From Candidatus Zixiibacteriota bacterium (GTDB taxonomy: Bacteria > Zixibacteria > MSB-5A5 > GN15 > FEB-12), in the NCBI GenBank assembly GCA_017999435.1, contig JAGNLV010000003.1, positions 62,001 to 126,000 on the forward strand: a DNA stretch of 64,000 nt, read 5' to 3'. The notes under the pieces are model-generated. The model saw nothing but the letters and a program-made list of their open reading frames with translations, made no database searches and was not told the DNA's origin. Positions 10,186 through 17,512 of the stretch are shown here, piece after piece (the stretch's first letter is position 1; every line of letters starts with the position of its first letter). A program made the position numbers and the translations under genes.

Positions 10186-11538
10186 TCACGACTCGATGTT
10201 AAGGCGCTTGATCATCTTGCGCAGGTTGGCCGGATCGATCTTGAGCTCCTCACCGGCCGCGATCACGTTCCCGCGCGCCCGGTCGAGCGCCTGCACGATC
10301 TTCATCCGCTTGAATTCCCATACCTGTTCGGCCAGGCCGGAGTTTCCGTTGGGGGCGGCGCTGCTCTCGTACCCGAGGTGGTTGGCCACGTCGTGGTAGG
10401 TGATGTAGTAACCGGGCGAAAGTTGAATGAGCGACTCCACCGTGTCGGAGAGCTGCCGGACATTGCCGGGCCAGTCGAATTCGACGAGGAGGGCGCGGGC
10501 CGACGGCTCGAACACTTTCAGGCCGACCCCGTTGATCCGGCAGGTCCGCTCGATGAAGTAGTCGAGGAGCTCGGGAATGTCCTCCCGGCGTTCCCGGAGC
10601 GCGGGCAGGCGGATCGTCACGCCTTTGAGGCGGTAGTAGAGATCCATCCGGAAAGCGCCGCTGCGCACCTGTTCCTCGAGGTCGAGGTGGGTGGCGCAGA
10701 TGACGCGGACGTCGACACTGCGCTTCACGCAGGTGCCCACCGGGGTGACCTCGCCATACTCGATAGCGCGGAGGATTTTCGCCTGGGTGGCGGGATCGAG
10801 TTCGCCGATCTCATCGAGGAACAGCGTGCTCCCGTCGGCGGCTTCGAAATACCCGACGCGGTTGGCCACCGCCCCGGTGAACGACCCCTCGGTGTGGCCG
10901 AAGAGTTCGGACTCGACCATGGTCGGGTCTTTCTGGCTGCAGTTGACGACCATCATCTCCCGGTCGGCGCGGCGGCTCCGGGCATGGAGGGCGCGGGCGA
11001 CCAGCTCTTTGCCGCTCCCGGTGGGGCCGAGGATCATGACTTTCGACGTGGTCGGGCCGATCTGCTCGATCCGCTGGTAGATCTGGCGCATGTCGCGCGA
11101 CTTCCCCACCATACCGTAGCGCTCTCGCGCCGCATCGATCAAGTCGCTTCCCGTGTTGCCCAGACGGTGGTACTGCACGGCGTTCTTGACCGCCCGCCGG
11201 AGACGCGAGGGTGGTTCGTTCTTGCCGATGAAGTCGAAGGGGTGGTAGTCGCGGTCGATATCCTCCTCCGAGTAATTTCCCGCAAACCCGGTGTGGAAGA
11301 TGATCGGGATTTCGGGGGCGATGTCCTTGATGAGGTTGGCGGCTTTCAGGCCGTCCATGCGGGCCATGCGGATGTCGAGGATGATGGTGTCGATCTCGGG
11401 GTGCTCTTTGATCCGCTCGAGCGCCTCCTGGCCGGAGAGCGCGGTGAGGACAGCGTAATCATCGGTGAACGATTCCAGCATGGCCTCGAGAACCATGCGG
11501 TCGTCGTCGACGATGAGAATCTGTCCGCTCTTAGACAC
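10186..11538 (-). CDS. NtrC-family sigma-54 response regulator
   Basis: A 450-residue transcription activator. The receiver domain (1-120) has Asp55 as predicted phosphorylation site in ILDIRM and Lys in FIGKNEP. An AAA+ sigma-54 interaction domain (about 140-375) has Walker A GPTGSGKE, Walker B TLFLDEIGE and the C-terminal FDWPGNVRQL. The sigma-54-contact loop reads GSFTGA rather than GAFTGA. A Fis-type helix-turn-helix fills residues 405-450. It lies 14 bases after the giant PAS kinase, which is presumably its partner, so the pair would control sigma-54 promoters. Targets are unknown. Confidence 0.93.
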   Translation of the reverse strand: MSKSGQILIVDDDRMVLEAMLESFTDDYAVLTALSGQEALERIKEHPEIDTIILDIRMARMDGLKAANLIKDIAPEIPIIFHTGFAGNYSEEDIDRDYHPFDFIGKNEPPSRLRRAVKNAVQYHRLGNTGSDLIDAARERYGMVGKSRDMRQIYQRIEQIGPTTSKVMILGPTGSGKELVARALHARSRRADREMMVVNCSQKDPTMVESELFGHTEGSFTGAVANRVGYFEAADGSTLFLDEIGELDPATQAKILRAIEYGEVTPVGTCVKRSVDVRVICATHLDLEEQVRSGAFRMDLYYRLKGVTIRLPALRERREDIPELLDYFIERTCRINGVGLKVFEPSARALLVEFDWPGNVRQLSDTVESLIQLSPGYYITYHDVANHLGYESSAAPNGNSGLAEQVWEFKRMKIVQALDRARGNVIAAGEELKIDPANLRKMIKRLNIES

Positions 11539-11552
11539 TGGTAGACAACTGC

Positions 11553-14500
11553 TTACAAGTGACTGCCACCTGGGAGCAATATAATGAATGTGGTTCCTCT
11601 GTCAAGCGCGGATTCAAGACCGATCTGACCATCATACAGCTCCACGATCCGTTTGGCGACCGCCAGCCCCAGGCCGGTCCCACGGTCGAGCTTGGTGGTG
11701 AAGAACGGCTCGAAGGCCCGCTGCTGGATCTCGAACGGAATCCCCGGTCCGGTGTCGCGGACGACAATGCGCACCCGGCCGTCGTCCGGCCGGGCGGCGA
11801 TCGACACCGCCCGTTCCGTTACTTCGGCGACCGCGTCGAGGGCATTGATCACGAGGTTGTTGAACAGGCTGTAGAGGTGCGATTTGCCGACCGTGACAAA
11901 GAGATCGGCGGGGATGTCGGCGGTGATGGTCGCCGCCAGTTCCTCGGCGGCGTGGCGGTTCTGCTCGACGATCTCCTGAATGACGCCGGCGAGCCGGACC
12001 CGCTCCACCCGGCGCTGGGACTCCAGCCGGGCGTACTGGGTGACGGTTTCTGTCAGGGAAATGGCGCGGCGGACGGCGCGATCGGCCAACTGCATGAGAC
12101 GCTCGGTGCGGGCGAGATCGGTCGTGTCGGAAGCGGCCAGCAGCCCCCGCAATTTCTCGAGGGTGGCGATCGCCGGATAGAGAGAGTTGTAGATTTCGTG
12201 GGAGACGCCGCCGGCGATTTCGCGCATCTGCTGGTAGCGGAGAAGGTTCGCCCGCCGGACCTCTTCCTCGGCCCGCTTGCGTTCGGTGATATCGACCACC
12301 ACACCGCGCAGTCCCGCCGGCAGCCCGTCGCGCACGATGCGCGAAGAGTAGATGAGTACGGGAAAAGTGGAACCGTCCTTGCGCAGGTGCGTGTACTCGT
12401 AGCGCTGGGGGTTCTCCCCTGCCAGACGTTTGGCGAAGTTGGCGCGGACTTCGGCGCGGTCGCTTTCAAGGAAGAGCTGGTCGACGGTCAGGCCGGCCTC
12501 CAGGTCGGCCGATGTGTACCCGGTGGACTCAAAGCCGTGGCGGTTGGAGTAGGTCAGGCGGCCGACGACGTCGGTTTCGAAGACGGTCTGCGGCAAGAGA
12601 TCGGCCAGCTCGCGGAAGCGCTCCTCGCTCTCGCGCAGCGCCTCTTCCGCCCGCTTCGCCATCGTGATGTCGTGAGCAATGACCAGGGCGGCCACCGTGC
12701 GCCCCCGGAGGTCGCGGTAGGGCTGCACGTTGTTGTAGAACCACCGCCACTCGCCCCTGAGGTAGACCGGCGCCTCGCTGATGAACTCCTTGTCCTCGGC
12801 GATCACCCGCCGGACGTTGGACATCTGCCGGTCGGCCAGATCTTCGGGGAAGATATCCCACTCGGTCCGGCCGATGAGTTCCTCCGGACGGCGGCCGACT
12901 GCCTGGGCGGCATTCTGGTTGACGAACAGGAAGTAGCCCTCGGCATCGACGAGAATGATCGAGGCCCGGACGTTCTCGACGAGGAGACGGTACTTCTCTT
13001 CCTGCTGCCGCACGGACTCCTCGGCGGCTTTGCGCTCGGAGATATCGCGGGAGACGATGCACAGGACCTTGTGGCCGCCGTAGACGATCTCGTTGACGCC
13101 GACTTCGACCGGGATGCGCCGCCCGTCGCGGGTGCGGTAGTACCGCTCGCGGAGGAAGGGCAGTCCCCCGGCGAGAACCTTCCGGAAGCCTTCCCGAACC
13201 TCGCCGGAATCGTGGTCGACGAAGTCAAAGAGCGAGATTCCGCACATTTCTTCGACTGAATAGCCGAGCATCTCGCGAAGCGAGCGGTTGGCCTCGATGA
13301 TGCGCCCCGAGTCGGCCTGGGCGAGGTAGATGAAGTCGGCGCTCTGCTCCATGACGGCGCGGTATTTTTCCTCGCTCTCGCGCACGGCTGTTTCCATGTG
13401 CTTGCGGTCGGTGATGTCATGGCCGATGGCGATGGCGGTGACCGCGCCGGTGTGCGGGTCCTCGAGCATCGAGTTCGACCACAGGATGATGCGCTCCTCG
13501 CCGGTGCGGGTCAGGAGCGCCCGCTCGTAGCGGTCGGCGGGGTGGTCGCGGACCCACTGGCCGAAACGGACGAGGCCGGGGTGGTGAAAGTGCTCCGGCA
13601 GAAAGAGTTCGTGCCAGGACCGCCCGAGCACCTCCTCGCGCCGGTAGCCCGTGACCCGTTCGAGCTCGTCGTTGAACACCGTGATGCACCCCCGCTCGTC
13701 CAGGCAGCAGATCAGGCTGTTGGCGGTCTGCAGGACCATCCGCGTGAAATCCCGCTCGGCCGCCAGTTCCCGGTTGGCCTCGATCATCTCCAGGTACGAC
13801 CCGACCATCGCGGCCGCCGCCCGCAGCAGCCGGACGTCTTCCTCGCTCCATCGCCGGGCCGAGCGGGTGTCGTCGAAACCGATAAAGCCGTACCACTGGC
13901 CGCGGACAAAGACGGGCAGGGTGAGGACGGAGAGGACGCCGCAGGGGGCGTTGACGGAGCGCACGGGCTCGCTCATCTCGGCCACTACGCCGCCGACCGG
14001 GCGACCGGCAGCCAGCCGGTCCCGCATGGACGCAAACTGCGGCGCGTAGGGGCGGCGCTGAAGCTCCGGCCGGCCGAGCGTCGGTCTCACACCCGGCCGG
14101 CACACTTCGTAGACCTCCCGCGCGCACAGGCCGAGCTCGGGATCCGTGAAGTTCTGGTAGACGTACACGCGGCAGGAGTCGAGCGCCGTCAGCAGGTGGT
14201 AGAGCGCATCGTTCAGCGCCCCCGCCGATACGGGCGTCTGAAGCAGCGTCAGCGAACACCCCACCAGGCCTTCCTCGTAGCGCAGGCGGGTCGCCAGCTG
14301 CTGCCGGGAGCGCACCCGATCGGTGACATCTTCGGTGTGCACCATCACGAGGTCGGGCGGCACGTAGACGTAGTGGACGATGAGCGAAACGGTGCGGTCG
14401 AGGGACTGAAAGGTGTAGTCCATTTCTCGCCGAATGGTCGTCTGTTCGTCGAAGCATCGGGCGATGTCGGCGCGCAGGTCCGGCCGGTCGGCGTACAGCA

Positions 14501-17294
14501 GGGAGAGCCGGATGCCGGCTTTCAAGGCGATCGTGCCGCCCGTGATCGCGACCGCCGCGTCGTTGTAGTCGGCCAGCACGAAGTCGTCGCCCGCCCGCTG
14601 CCAGGTGTACGTGGGCACGGGAATGCCCTTGTACTGCGCCCGCATCTTCTCTTCGCTCTCGTGGAGGGCGTCGATAGCGGCCCGCTGCTCGGTGATGTCG
14701 TAGATCGCGCCGTCGAGAAAGGCGACCGTTCCATCGGGGCCGGCGACGGCCTGGCCCCGCTCGTGGACCCAGCGCACCTCGCCGTCGGCGCGGACAATGC
14801 GGTATTCCGCGGAGAACGGCCGGCGGCCGGCGACCGCGGCGGCGATCACCTCGCTCACGCGCGACCGGTCGTCCCGATGCACGATGCTCGCGTAGGGGGT
14901 GCCGCCGCCCGGCTCAAAAACCGCGCTCTCGTAACCGGTGACGGTGGTGATCTCGTTGCTGACAAATTCCATCAGCCGCGCCTCGCCGGGGAGGCAGCGG
15001 TAGATTGCGGCCGGGATGTTGGCGACGAGCGCCGCCAGGCGGTCTTCGCTGCGGCGAAGGGCCGCCTCAGTCGCCAAGCGCTCGCTGACATCGCGCAACG
15101 TCGTGTGCAGAACCGAGCGGCCGCCGATCTCAATCAGGGTGTGGCTTATTTCGACGGGGCAGCGCCGGCCGTCTTCGCCGCAGACGACTCCGTTGATCCA
15201 CTTGCCGGTGCTCGCGATTTCCAGGTGCCGTTTGTAGCGCTCCCCGAAATTGGCGCGGATATCCGGCGGCGCCATCTCCGAGACATGGCGGCCGATCAGG
15301 CGGTCGCGGGGCCGGCCAATCAGCGCCTCCGCGCGGGCGTTGAGATCGATGACCTTCCCGGTCTCGGCGTCCGCAATGACATAGGCGTCGCGCGATCCGT
15401 GGAACAACATGCGGAAGCGCTCCTCGGATTCGCGCAACTCGTTTTCCGCCCGCGCCCGGTCGGTCCAGTCCCGGATCACAGTGAGCACCTGGCAGTCATC
15501 GACCGGGGCCATGCGCAGTTCCCAGTGCCGGCGCTCGCCGCCCTGGTCCAGGTCGTACTCGAGGCTCTCCATGGCGCCCGTGTCGAGGGCGCGCCCGATC
15601 GCCTCCATGGCCGGACCCGCTACCGCCGGCGGCAGGGATTCGGAGAGCGGGCGGTTGAGGAAAACCTCGGGCGGCAACAGCAGATCGGCGTGCTCGCGGG
15701 CATGAAAATCAGTGATGACGCCGTCCCGATTGATCCGGAACACGAGATCCGGCGACGCCTGGCAGAAAGCGAGAAAGTCGGCCTCGCGCTGGCGCAGCAG
15801 CCGCTGCACCTGGAGTCGCCGCCGATTGACAATCACCAGCGTGACCAGCAGGGCGATGGCGACCGCCGAGAGGTGCAAGTGGTAGCGCCAGAGGAAATTG
15901 CTCGCCACCGACCAGAGCGGGCGATGGTCAAATTCGGCGATCAGGGCGCCGCCCCCGCCGGAGAAGACATAGGATGCGCGCTCGGCCTCCGGATCGAACG
16001 CGATGAGGGCGCGGTACTCGCCGACCGCCGGGAGCACCGCGAGAGGCTTCAGGTCGGCGGTCATGACGACCGCGCCGAGTTCCGACCCGAACAGCCAGGC
16101 CGGTTCGCTCCGCCCCGGCAAGTCGATGGTTCCCTGGAAGGAACGCAGGTGCGAAGGCGCGGAGCGGGCCATCAGGCGGAGGCGGCGATCGAAACGGCTG
16201 ACCGTGCCGTCCTGGGTCAAAACCCACACGCCCGAGTCGCCGGCGCCGGGCGGGACCCACAAAGCCCGCACGGGAGCAGAGAGGGGCGGCGAAGAATCGA
16301 GCACGGCGCCGTCGGTCGAGATGCGCGACACCCGGCGGACCGGCTGCAAGAAGGCGAGCGTATCCGCGGGCTCTGTGAGGGGGGTCGAGTGCCCGAGATA
16401 GTACTCGCCCGGCTGTTCGGCCGGGATAATTGCGATGCCGCCGTGCTCGGCCGCAATCACCCGGTTGAACCGCACGCGGCCGGTCCGATCAACCGCCGTC
16501 ACATAGGCCCAACTGTCGCTGAAGAGGCTGTCGGAAACCCCCTGCTTCGAATTGTAGGAGACGAAAATCAACCCCGGATCGGCGGGGTTCCCCCACAGAT
16601 GGACCTGCCCGGCCATGACTCCGGTCGCCACCGGCAGCGTCCACTCCACCGCGAACGTTTCCACCTCGATGCACACGAGGACACGCGGAACCAGATCGCG
16701 CACAGCGTTGAGGTAGAAGAGGATCTCGTGCCGCGCGTCGTAGTCGTAATCGGCGAGACCGACGCAGGTGATCGACGGCTGCCAGTGGCCGTCGCCCGTA
16801 TGGTCCTCGCCCGCGGCCAGAAACAGCCAGGCCACCGAATCCTCCGCCGGTCCGAATTTCACCGCGAATGCGGAATCGCGGCGGAACCCGGCCCCCACAA
16901 CCACCGTGTCGCCGCGCGCGGCGTCCGGGCAGAGACGGAAGTCGGCGATCGTCAGGCGCACCGGGTTGTCGTTGATGACGTGGCCGGTCGTGAGATCCTG
17001 GTAGGAGAACATGGCGGGATTGTCGGTGGTGACGGAGGGATTGTAGGCAAACACGACCAGGATGCTGTCGCCGGGCCGCGGTCCTCCGCGGTGAATCTGA
17101 AAGGGAGTGACGACCTGCGGCGCCGAGGGATCCGGCGCCATCTTCCGCCTGACCTCCACCTCGTACGGCAGCAGGCTCGAATCGGGCCGCGCGGGAATCT
17201 CCAGACTCGCCGGCGGCACCGGCGATGAGCGCGATTCGCGGCCGGCCGCCAAGGCGAGCACGAGAAGCAGAAGGCATGCGCACGCGCGCTTCAT
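11553..17294 (-). CDS. Giant membrane sensor histidine kinase, eight PAS domains plus GAF
   Basis: A 1,913-residue kinase. It has a signal peptide, a periplasmic beta-rich sensor (about 25-465), one transmembrane helix (about 470-490), four PAS domains, a GAF domain (about 1000-1175), four more PAS domains, then HisKA and HATPase_c. The H-box is GGVSHEIYNSLYP (about residue 1698), with Tyr where Arg/Asn is usual. The ATPase has NLVINALDAV, DTGPGIP and GTGLGLAVAKRI boxes. The PAS modules are joined by the usual SEExFRxLxE coiled segments. The next gene is its likely response regulator. The number of input modules is exceptional. Ligands cannot be told from sequence. Confidence 0.93.
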   Translation of the reverse strand: MKRACACLLLLVLALAAGRESRSSPVPPASLEIPARPDSSLLPYEVEVRRKMAPDPSAPQVVTPFQIHRGGPRPGDSILVVFAYNPSVTTDNPAMFSYQDLTTGHVINDNPVRLTIADFRLCPDAARGDTVVVGAGFRRDSAFAVKFGPAEDSVAWLFLAAGEDHTGDGHWQPSITCVGLADYDYDARHEILFYLNAVRDLVPRVLVCIEVETFAVEWTLPVATGVMAGQVHLWGNPADPGLIFVSYNSKQGVSDSLFSDSWAYVTAVDRTGRVRFNRVIAAEHGGIAIIPAEQPGEYYLGHSTPLTEPADTLAFLQPVRRVSRISTDGAVLDSSPPLSAPVRALWVPPGAGDSGVWVLTQDGTVSRFDRRLRLMARSAPSHLRSFQGTIDLPGRSEPAWLFGSELGAVVMTADLKPLAVLPAVGEYRALIAFDPEAERASYVFSGGGGALIAEFDHRPLWSVASNFLWRYHLHLSAVAIALLVTLVIVNRRRLQVQRLLRQREADFLAFCQASPDLVFRINRDGVITDFHAREHADLLLPPEVFLNRPLSESLPPAVAGPAMEAIGRALDTGAMESLEYDLDQGGERRHWELRMAPVDDCQVLTVIRDWTDRARAENELRESEERFRMLFHGSRDAYVIADAETGKVIDLNARAEALIGRPRDRLIGRHVSEMAPPDIRANFGERYKRHLEIASTGKWINGVVCGEDGRRCPVEISHTLIEIGGRSVLHTTLRDVSERLATEAALRRSEDRLAALVANIPAAIYRCLPGEARLMEFVSNEITTVTGYESAVFEPGGGTPYASIVHRDDRSRVSEVIAAAVAGRRPFSAEYRIVRADGEVRWVHERGQAVAGPDGTVAFLDGAIYDITEQRAAIDALHESEEKMRAQYKGIPVPTYTWQRAGDDFVLADYNDAAVAITGGTIALKAGIRLSLLYADRPDLRADIARCFDEQTTIRREMDYTFQSLDRTVSLIVHYVYVPPDLVMVHTEDVTDRVRSRQQLATRLRYEEGLVGCSLTLLQTPVSAGALNDALYHLLTALDSCRVYVYQNFTDPELGLCAREVYEVCRPGVRPTLGRPELQRRPYAPQFASMRDRLAAGRPVGGVVAEMSEPVRSVNAPCGVLSVLTLPVFVRGQWYGFIGFDDTRSARRWSEEDVRLLRAAAAMVGSYLEMIEANRELAAERDFTRMVLQTANSLICCLDERGCITVFNDELERVTGYRREEVLGRSWHELFLPEHFHHPGLVRFGQWVRDHPADRYERALLTRTGEERIILWSNSMLEDPHTGAVTAIAIGHDITDRKHMETAVRESEEKYRAVMEQSADFIYLAQADSGRIIEANRSLREMLGYSVEEMCGISLFDFVDHDSGEVREGFRKVLAGGLPFLRERYYRTRDGRRIPVEVGVNEIVYGGHKVLCIVSRDISERKAAEESVRQQEEKYRLLVENVRASIILVDAEGYFLFVNQNAAQAVGRRPEELIGRTEWDIFPEDLADRQMSNVRRVIAEDKEFISEAPVYLRGEWRWFYNNVQPYRDLRGRTVAALVIAHDITMAKRAEEALRESEERFRELADLLPQTVFETDVVGRLTYSNRHGFESTGYTSADLEAGLTVDQLFLESDRAEVRANFAKRLAGENPQRYEYTHLRKDGSTFPVLIYSSRIVRDGLPAGLRGVVVDITERKRAEEEVRRANLLRYQQMREIAGGVSHEIYNSLYPAIATLEKLRGLLAASDTTDLARTERLMQLADRAVRRAISLTETVTQYARLESQRRVERVRLAGVIQEIVEQNRHAAEELAATITADIPADLFVTVGKSHLYSLFNNLVINALDAVAEVTERAVSIAARPDDGRVRIVVRDTGPGIPFEIQQRAFEPFFTTKLDRGTGLGLAVAKRIVELYDGQIGLESALDRGTTFIILLPGGSHL

Positions 17295-17364
17295 ACCATC
17301 AAGATATGCAGAACGGTCAAAAAGCCAAATTGAAAGCCGGACCCCCGATCGCGCCGGAAACGGG

Positions 17365-17478
17365 AAGACCCTTCGGATTATCCCGAAGGGTCTTCACATA
17401 AAGGAGGAAACCCTGCCTGTTGGGCTTGAGCACACGGGAGGGGGGACAGGCAGGGTTTCTAGGGGGCTTTTCTATTGC
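17365..17478 (-). ncRNA. Candidate small RNA or structured leader with C-rich, anti-SD-like single strands
   Basis: The predicted transcript starts near 17478. It first folds a perfect 14-bp stem (GAAACCCTGCCTGT at 17446-17459 and 17407-17420 in reverse complement) with a 25-base loop containing CCCCCCUCCC. The linker contains CCUCCUUU, identical to the 3' end of 16S rRNA. A perfect 12-bp stem (17383-17394 with 17365-17376, AAGACCCTTCGG) closes it. No U-run follows, so it may instead be the leader of the kinase gene starting at 17294. Known C-rich sRNAs act by binding ribosome sites; that role here is inference. Confidence 0.5.
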
Positions 17479-17484
17479 CTCTGC

Positions 17485-17512
17485 ATTATAAGCTTTTTCA
17501 CGCCCTTGTCAA
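17485..17512 (-). promoter_or_regulatory. Consensus sigma-70 promoter upstream of the kinase/sRNA
   Basis: Minus strand TTGACA (17512-17507), 16-base spacer, TATAAT (17490-17485): both boxes are perfect. A second possible promoter, TTGACA (17546-17541) with TTAATC (17523-17518) at 17-base spacing, lies just upstream. Confidence 0.8.

Follow-up and report, generated by a model that had tools for sequence, protein, structure and literature searches.

The window (the whole stretch of 64,000 nucleotides that was analysed) carries on its minus strand a multi-PAS sensor histidine kinase gene, whose open reading frame starts at 17294 and whose PAS and histidine-kinase ATPase domains were confirmed, followed by a sigma-54 response regulator. 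Upstream of the kinase, on the same strand, lie a predicted promoter, a perfect hairpin with a C-rich apical loop and a CU-rich tail (Table 1). To judge from its sequence, this stretch is very probably the gene of a genuine small RNA that is conserved among relatives, which we denote the class I RNA. The opposite strand was rejected as the RNA strand because its fold is much weaker (z = -1.7) and the promoters sit on the minus strand.

Table 1. Features of the class I locus and the class II copy of the same genome (window positions unless a contig is named).
Feature	Position	Strand	Basis or remark
Sigma-54 response regulator, after the kinase	10186-11538	-	Pfam, NCBIfam
Multi-PAS sensor histidine kinase, 1913 aa, predicted signal peptide (by eye)	11553-17294	-	Pfam, NCBIfam
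Kinase promoter-like element TTGGCT-N16-TATCTT, 6 nt short of the ATG	17301-17328	-	Spacing shared by 5 of 6 kinase loci
Hairpin 2, 13 bp (17395-17383 with 17376-17364), loop GAUAAU	17364-17395	-	Genome-specific, without conservation
Class I small RNA, predicted mature form, ~80 nt	17400-17478	-	Extent of conservation; both ends predicted
3' tail CUCCUUU, CU-rich weak terminator tail, possible second anti-Shine-Dalgarno site	17400-17406	-	Nearly all copies CU-rich
Hairpin 1, perfect 14-bp stem (17459-17446 with 17420-17407), 25-nt loop	17407-17459	-	Sequence, folding, stem changes
C-rich apical loop CCCCCCUCCCGUGUGCUCAAGCCCA, presumed target-pairing site	17421-17445	-	Near-invariant in alignments A1 and A3
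5' single-stranded C-rich segment GCCCCCU	17461-17467	-	CCCC/CCCUCC kept in most copies
-10 element TATAAT, 16-nt spacer to -35	17485-17490	-	Sequence; p = 0.012 for the score relative to random windows at this locus
-35 element TTGACA of the small-RNA promoter	17507-17512	-	Sequence; TTGAC(A/T) in 17 of 17 copies
Class II copy, source genome (L174)	G000:C2:133280-133357 (outside window)	+	R3 match

The perfect TTGACA/TATAAT promoter with a 16-base spacer that had originally been proposed was borne out on the minus strand at 17512-17485. Promoter prediction in the 80 nt upstream of all 17 known copies of the RNA placed TTGAC(A/T) at the -35 of the best sigma-70-type site in every one of them, so that the class I RNA has, by prediction, a promoter of its own as C-rich sRNAs do. 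The spacer is 16 nt in 13 of the 17 copies, and in 13 of the 17 the promoter lies 7-13 nt ahead of the model start or conserved core; scores range from p 0.010 to 0.047 against random windows of the same locus. The -10 element is variable (TATAAT, TATTTT, TATCTT and others), usually of the form TATNNT. We place the start of the RNA about 7 nt past the -10 and its end at the CU-rich tail. A further TTGACA lies upstream of this promoter (17546-17541, minus strand) and is not followed by a good -10.

The region 17483-17360 folds with -54.1 kcal/mol (z = -7.7), a value that none of 200 dinucleotide shuffles matched, and hairpin 1 by itself reaches z = -4.5. Within this stable fold C-rich segments stay unpaired, as in C-rich sRNAs: the 5' segment holds a CCCCC run at 17466-17462 (minus strand), and CCUCCUUU stands at 17407-17400 (minus strand), where its first C closes the stem of hairpin 1 and leaves 7 nt exposed. 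The original prediction had described a perfect 14-bp hairpin with a C-rich loop, a linker and a perfect 12-bp hairpin in an RNA of about 114 bases. The first hairpin is there as described. The second is indeed perfect, but its stem is 13 bp and is not conserved in relatives; it occurs once in the source genome, and the blastn matches of relatives end before it. Being unconserved and free of a U-tract, it was also rejected as a terminator, and it probably lies outside the small RNA. Because hairpin 2 is not conserved, we take the RNA to be about 80 nt long rather than 114. As for the linker, proposed to be an anti-Shine-Dalgarno sequence equal to the 3' end of 16S rRNA, the exact CCUCCUUU is present here but limited to the source genome; relatives keep only a CU-rich tail (UUUCUCC, UUUUCCUUU, UUCUUCC).

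Among 98 relatives searched with blastn, ten other genomes, all from other genera of the same family, have the hairpin-1/C-rich part (query 9-85), at E values of 2e-22 to 9e-5; because the matches reach E 2e-22 in other genera, the hairpin is not a product of chance. A covariance model (R1) added further members. In total, the class I RNA was found in 17 copies in 16 Candidatus Zixibacteriota genomes, representing nine genera of one family and one outlier. These are 15 of the 54 family genomes, with 16 copies (G038 has two), and G115, of a different family in the same taxonomic class, whose copy is the weakest member (28.7 bits) and has its own TTGACA-N17-TATGCT and a CU-rich tail. Presence in 15 of 54 genomes means that the RNA is not essential family-wide; the figure is also partly due to incomplete metagenome-assembled genomes. 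When 84,980 species were scanned with a stringent pattern, which would miss diverged forms, ten contigs were returned, all from genomes already known as carriers; their titles read Candidatus Zixiibacteriota, candidate division GN15 or simply 'bacterium'.

The compensatory stem changes and conserved C-rich single strands that one would look for in relatives were both found. In the alignment of 17 copies, 98.5% of stem cells are paired, and both sides have changed in 4 of the 12 consensus pairs of hairpin 1 (for example C-G to U-A, nine versus seven copies), more than in all shuffles and all slid controls; the covariation count benefits from this alignment having been fitted to the structure, and RNAalifold on an independent MAFFT alignment of 11 gives 2 such pairs. 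The loop is strongly conserved and unpaired (CCCUCCC-GUGUGCUCAA-CCC), with CUCCC-(0-1 nt)-GUGUGCU-YRA-NCC near-invariant among the family copies. A short conserved peptide was rejected as the source of this conservation, as the indels of 1-2 nt in the loop and tail are not multiples of three.

Typical terminators elsewhere share the stem of hairpin 1, which is therefore terminator-like. The weak matches of the model elsewhere are such ordinary terminators, with the stem letters AAACCCUGCCUG...CAGGCAGGGUUU and a clean U-run; those from the class-wide search (L058-L062, L064, L065, L067, L128, L129 and others) were not accepted as members, nor was G113 (L084), likewise judged an ordinary terminator. 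Hairpin 1 itself looks like a terminator whose loop was enlarged by a C-rich segment. In most class I copies the U-tract is broken by CUCC (tail T scores 2.7-5.4, most about 2.7-4.6), and because it is so poor or interrupted, termination efficiency is uncertain and read-through possible. One could then ask whether a promoter merely happens to lie near what is otherwise an ordinary intrinsic terminator or an inverted repeat at the DNA level, since the stem is identical to that of common terminators of the phylum. However, the loop and flanks are conserved too, a same-strand promoter stands at a near-constant distance in 17 of 17 copies, the genes upstream are variable and often on the opposite strand, and the RNA is normally single-copy per genome. 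We give this explanation very little credence and regard it as already largely refuted.

The original prediction had left undecided whether the RNA is free or the leader of the giant kinase gene. Six genomes, from five genera, have a multi-PAS histidine kinase as the next gene after the RNA and a sigma-54 response regulator after that; their upstream genes differ. In two other genera (g27 and g29) it is the upstream transporter genes that are conserved next to the RNA; downstream stands a gene for a subtilase with dockerin, for a PEP-CTERM protein or for a BNR/dockerin protein, or a decayed remnant. Kinase relatives (~31% identity) in G019, G026, G038 and G044 stand away from the RNA. The kinase genes also appear to have a start signal of their own: a TTGNNN-N16-TATCTT-like element lies 5-6 nt ahead of the ATG in five of six (the window and L071-L074), sites that are individually weak (p 0.02-0.2) and draw their weight from the repeated spacing. 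This arrangement suggests that the kinase mRNA is leaderless. G038 holds a second, diverged copy of the RNA (L076:10107, G038:C98:19055-19134, minus strand), which follows one gene, faces a convergent gene, ends in UUUUUU and has no same-strand gene downstream.

These neighbourhoods bear on a cis-acting role, in which the promoter would drive a 5' UTR, the terminator-like hairpin would partly halt transcription ahead of the next gene, and read-through or translation would change when the C-rich loop is bound by a factor or partner RNA. As such a leader or attenuator predicts, most contexts have a same-strand gene within about 100-290 nt downstream, often encoding a large exported protein; the kinase linkage has been held in five genera, and the weak, interrupted U-tracts would permit read-through. 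Yet no constant link to one downstream gene family, as expected of a leader, was found across the class I loci: the downstream genes of different genera are unrelated (kinase, subtilase, fn3/dockerin, BNR/dockerin, PEP-CTERM), and the RNA is kept with a decayed downstream gene (G028) and, in the second G038 copy, with none. Moreover, the stretch from the RNA to the start codons shows no conservation, an alternative antiterminator pairing is not to be seen, and the kinase genes have the promoter-like element just described. Because the neighbours swap and the kinase has that element, an independent transcript is favoured; of the two options first considered, the kinase leader is disfavoured, and we hold a cis-acting role in general to be unlikely.

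We therefore favour, as fairly probable, an independent trans-acting sRNA of about 80 nt, whose C-rich sites would pair with Shine-Dalgarno regions and lower translation without Hfq. Conservation, fold, promoter, neighbour independence and absence of a detectable Hfq were computed; transcription, RNA ends, termination, target pairing and repression are inferred. A housekeeping-type promoter would start the RNA about 10 nt ahead of the C-rich 5' segment; a single hairpin would follow, with the stem of the phylum's ordinary intrinsic terminators and the 25-nt C-rich loop, and then the CU-rich tail. The CCCUCCC of the loop would pair with G-rich Shine-Dalgarno regions of several mRNAs, GUGUGCUCAA adding specificity and the 5' CCCCC and 3' CUCC serving as secondary sites, and pairing would reduce translation of the targets with no requirement for Hfq. 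Hfq was undetected with PF17209 in 12 of 12 genomes that have the class I RNA; the same search was positive in 5 of 14 control genomes. Several neighbouring genes bear GGAGG-type sites, complementary to the unpaired C-runs, and pairing at the ribosome-binding sites of several mRNAs is the likely action by analogy with RepG, LhrC and 6C (see below). A search of 14 genomes for a long complementary site at a translation start (pattern GAGCACACN{0,2}GGGAG) gave none besides the RNA gene itself, a result that neither supports nor refutes short-seed pairing; four other matches were discarded as targets, as by inspection they are not at start sites.

The conservation of the loop extends beyond the C-run, which simple anti-Shine-Dalgarno pairing does not need, and this would suit an RNA whose loop (C-run and GUGUGCUCAA) binds the transcription machinery or an RNA-binding protein, titrating it, and pairs with no mRNA. 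An extended seed would account for the same conservation, however, and the RNA has one hairpin only and lacks a 6S-like bulge, repeats of any known kind of binding motif and a match in Rfam to RNAs of the 6S or CsrB type. We consider a protein-binding role quite improbable. On balance, the class I RNA is probably a free-standing, conserved C-rich small RNA of a new family whose functional kind is already known.

A second RNA with a C-rich loop came to light in the same family. An improved model (R2) exposed terminators with loops such as UUUCCCCUCCCCG, some genomes having two or three of them in tandem, and a further model (R3) matched 39 of the 54 family genomes at E <= 0.05, namely the source genome and 38 others (for example L168-L193). 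In full sequences this class II has two hairpins, a C-rich terminator loop and a clean U-run, and both partners have changed in 13 of its 19 pairs (44 cells versus 15 in shuffles). In many copies a GGRAAC motif lies about 97-102 nt before the C-loop (84 in g30, 125 in g20), and overall it precedes 22 of 37 copies against a background of 30%. The motif resembles a sigma-E/ECF -35 and suggests a promoter of the extracytoplasmic-function type, with an undefined -10. Tandem copies stand about 185-270 bp apart in three-copy arrays (L137 in G046, L149 in G008, L178 in G014); two-copy arrays occur at L135 (G041) and L136 (G029). Such arrays resemble those of sibling sRNAs.

To go by its predicted form, class II shows that C-rich loops are recurrent in the family. 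It is possible, if somewhat doubtful, that Zixibacteriota in which no Hfq is detected use at least two sequence-unrelated families of C-rich-loop terminator sRNAs for chaperone-free translational control: class I, with a housekeeping promoter and beside the giant kinase in several genera, and class II, with a possibly extracytoplasmic-stress-type promoter and tandem in some genera. They would form a convergent counterpart of RepG, LhrC and 6C in a phylum for which neither Rfam 15 nor the literature searched yielded a described sRNA family.

That the layout belongs to no described family held for class I: in Rfam 15 cmscan searches of the window stretch, L006, L011 and L047, it matched nothing near gathering thresholds, including 6C and LhrC. 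In function it would nevertheless be of the kind of the C-rich, Shine-Dalgarno-pairing sRNAs RepG, LhrC, 6C and RsaE. In RepG of Helicobacter pylori, the terminator loop is C/U-rich and pairs with a G-rich repeat of an mRNA leader (PMC8295292). Like class I, RepG is a small RNA with a C-rich terminator-type loop, and it is encoded beside a regulator gene; it differs in phylum and sequence, and the class I loop of 25 nt has the added conserved GUGUGCUCAA. LhrC of Listeria monocytogenes pairs with Shine-Dalgarno sequences through three redundant CU-rich (UCCC) sites, which lie in the terminator loop, another loop and a single-stranded stretch, and Hfq is dispensable (PMC4132741). Its tandem sibling copies resemble class II of the Zixibacteriota, whereas class I is one hairpin, normally single-copy, with a sigma-70-type promoter and no Rfam match. 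The 6C RNA of Actinobacteria also has C-rich loops (PMC9569102). These loops are common to 6C and class I, but the 6C family is confined to Actinobacteria and has a structure of its own, and class I does not match it. ErsA (Pseudomon-1, RF01719), an envelope-stress sRNA, was matched below threshold (28 bits versus a gathering score of 50, E 0.08) by one class II copy (G008) among the loci scanned, and not by class I. If our reading is true, one more phylum would have arrived at C-rich-loop sRNAs that work without Hfq, which would make them a recurrent solution, and the RNA, promoter, seed loop and covariance model defined for class I make this directly testable in metatranscriptomes.
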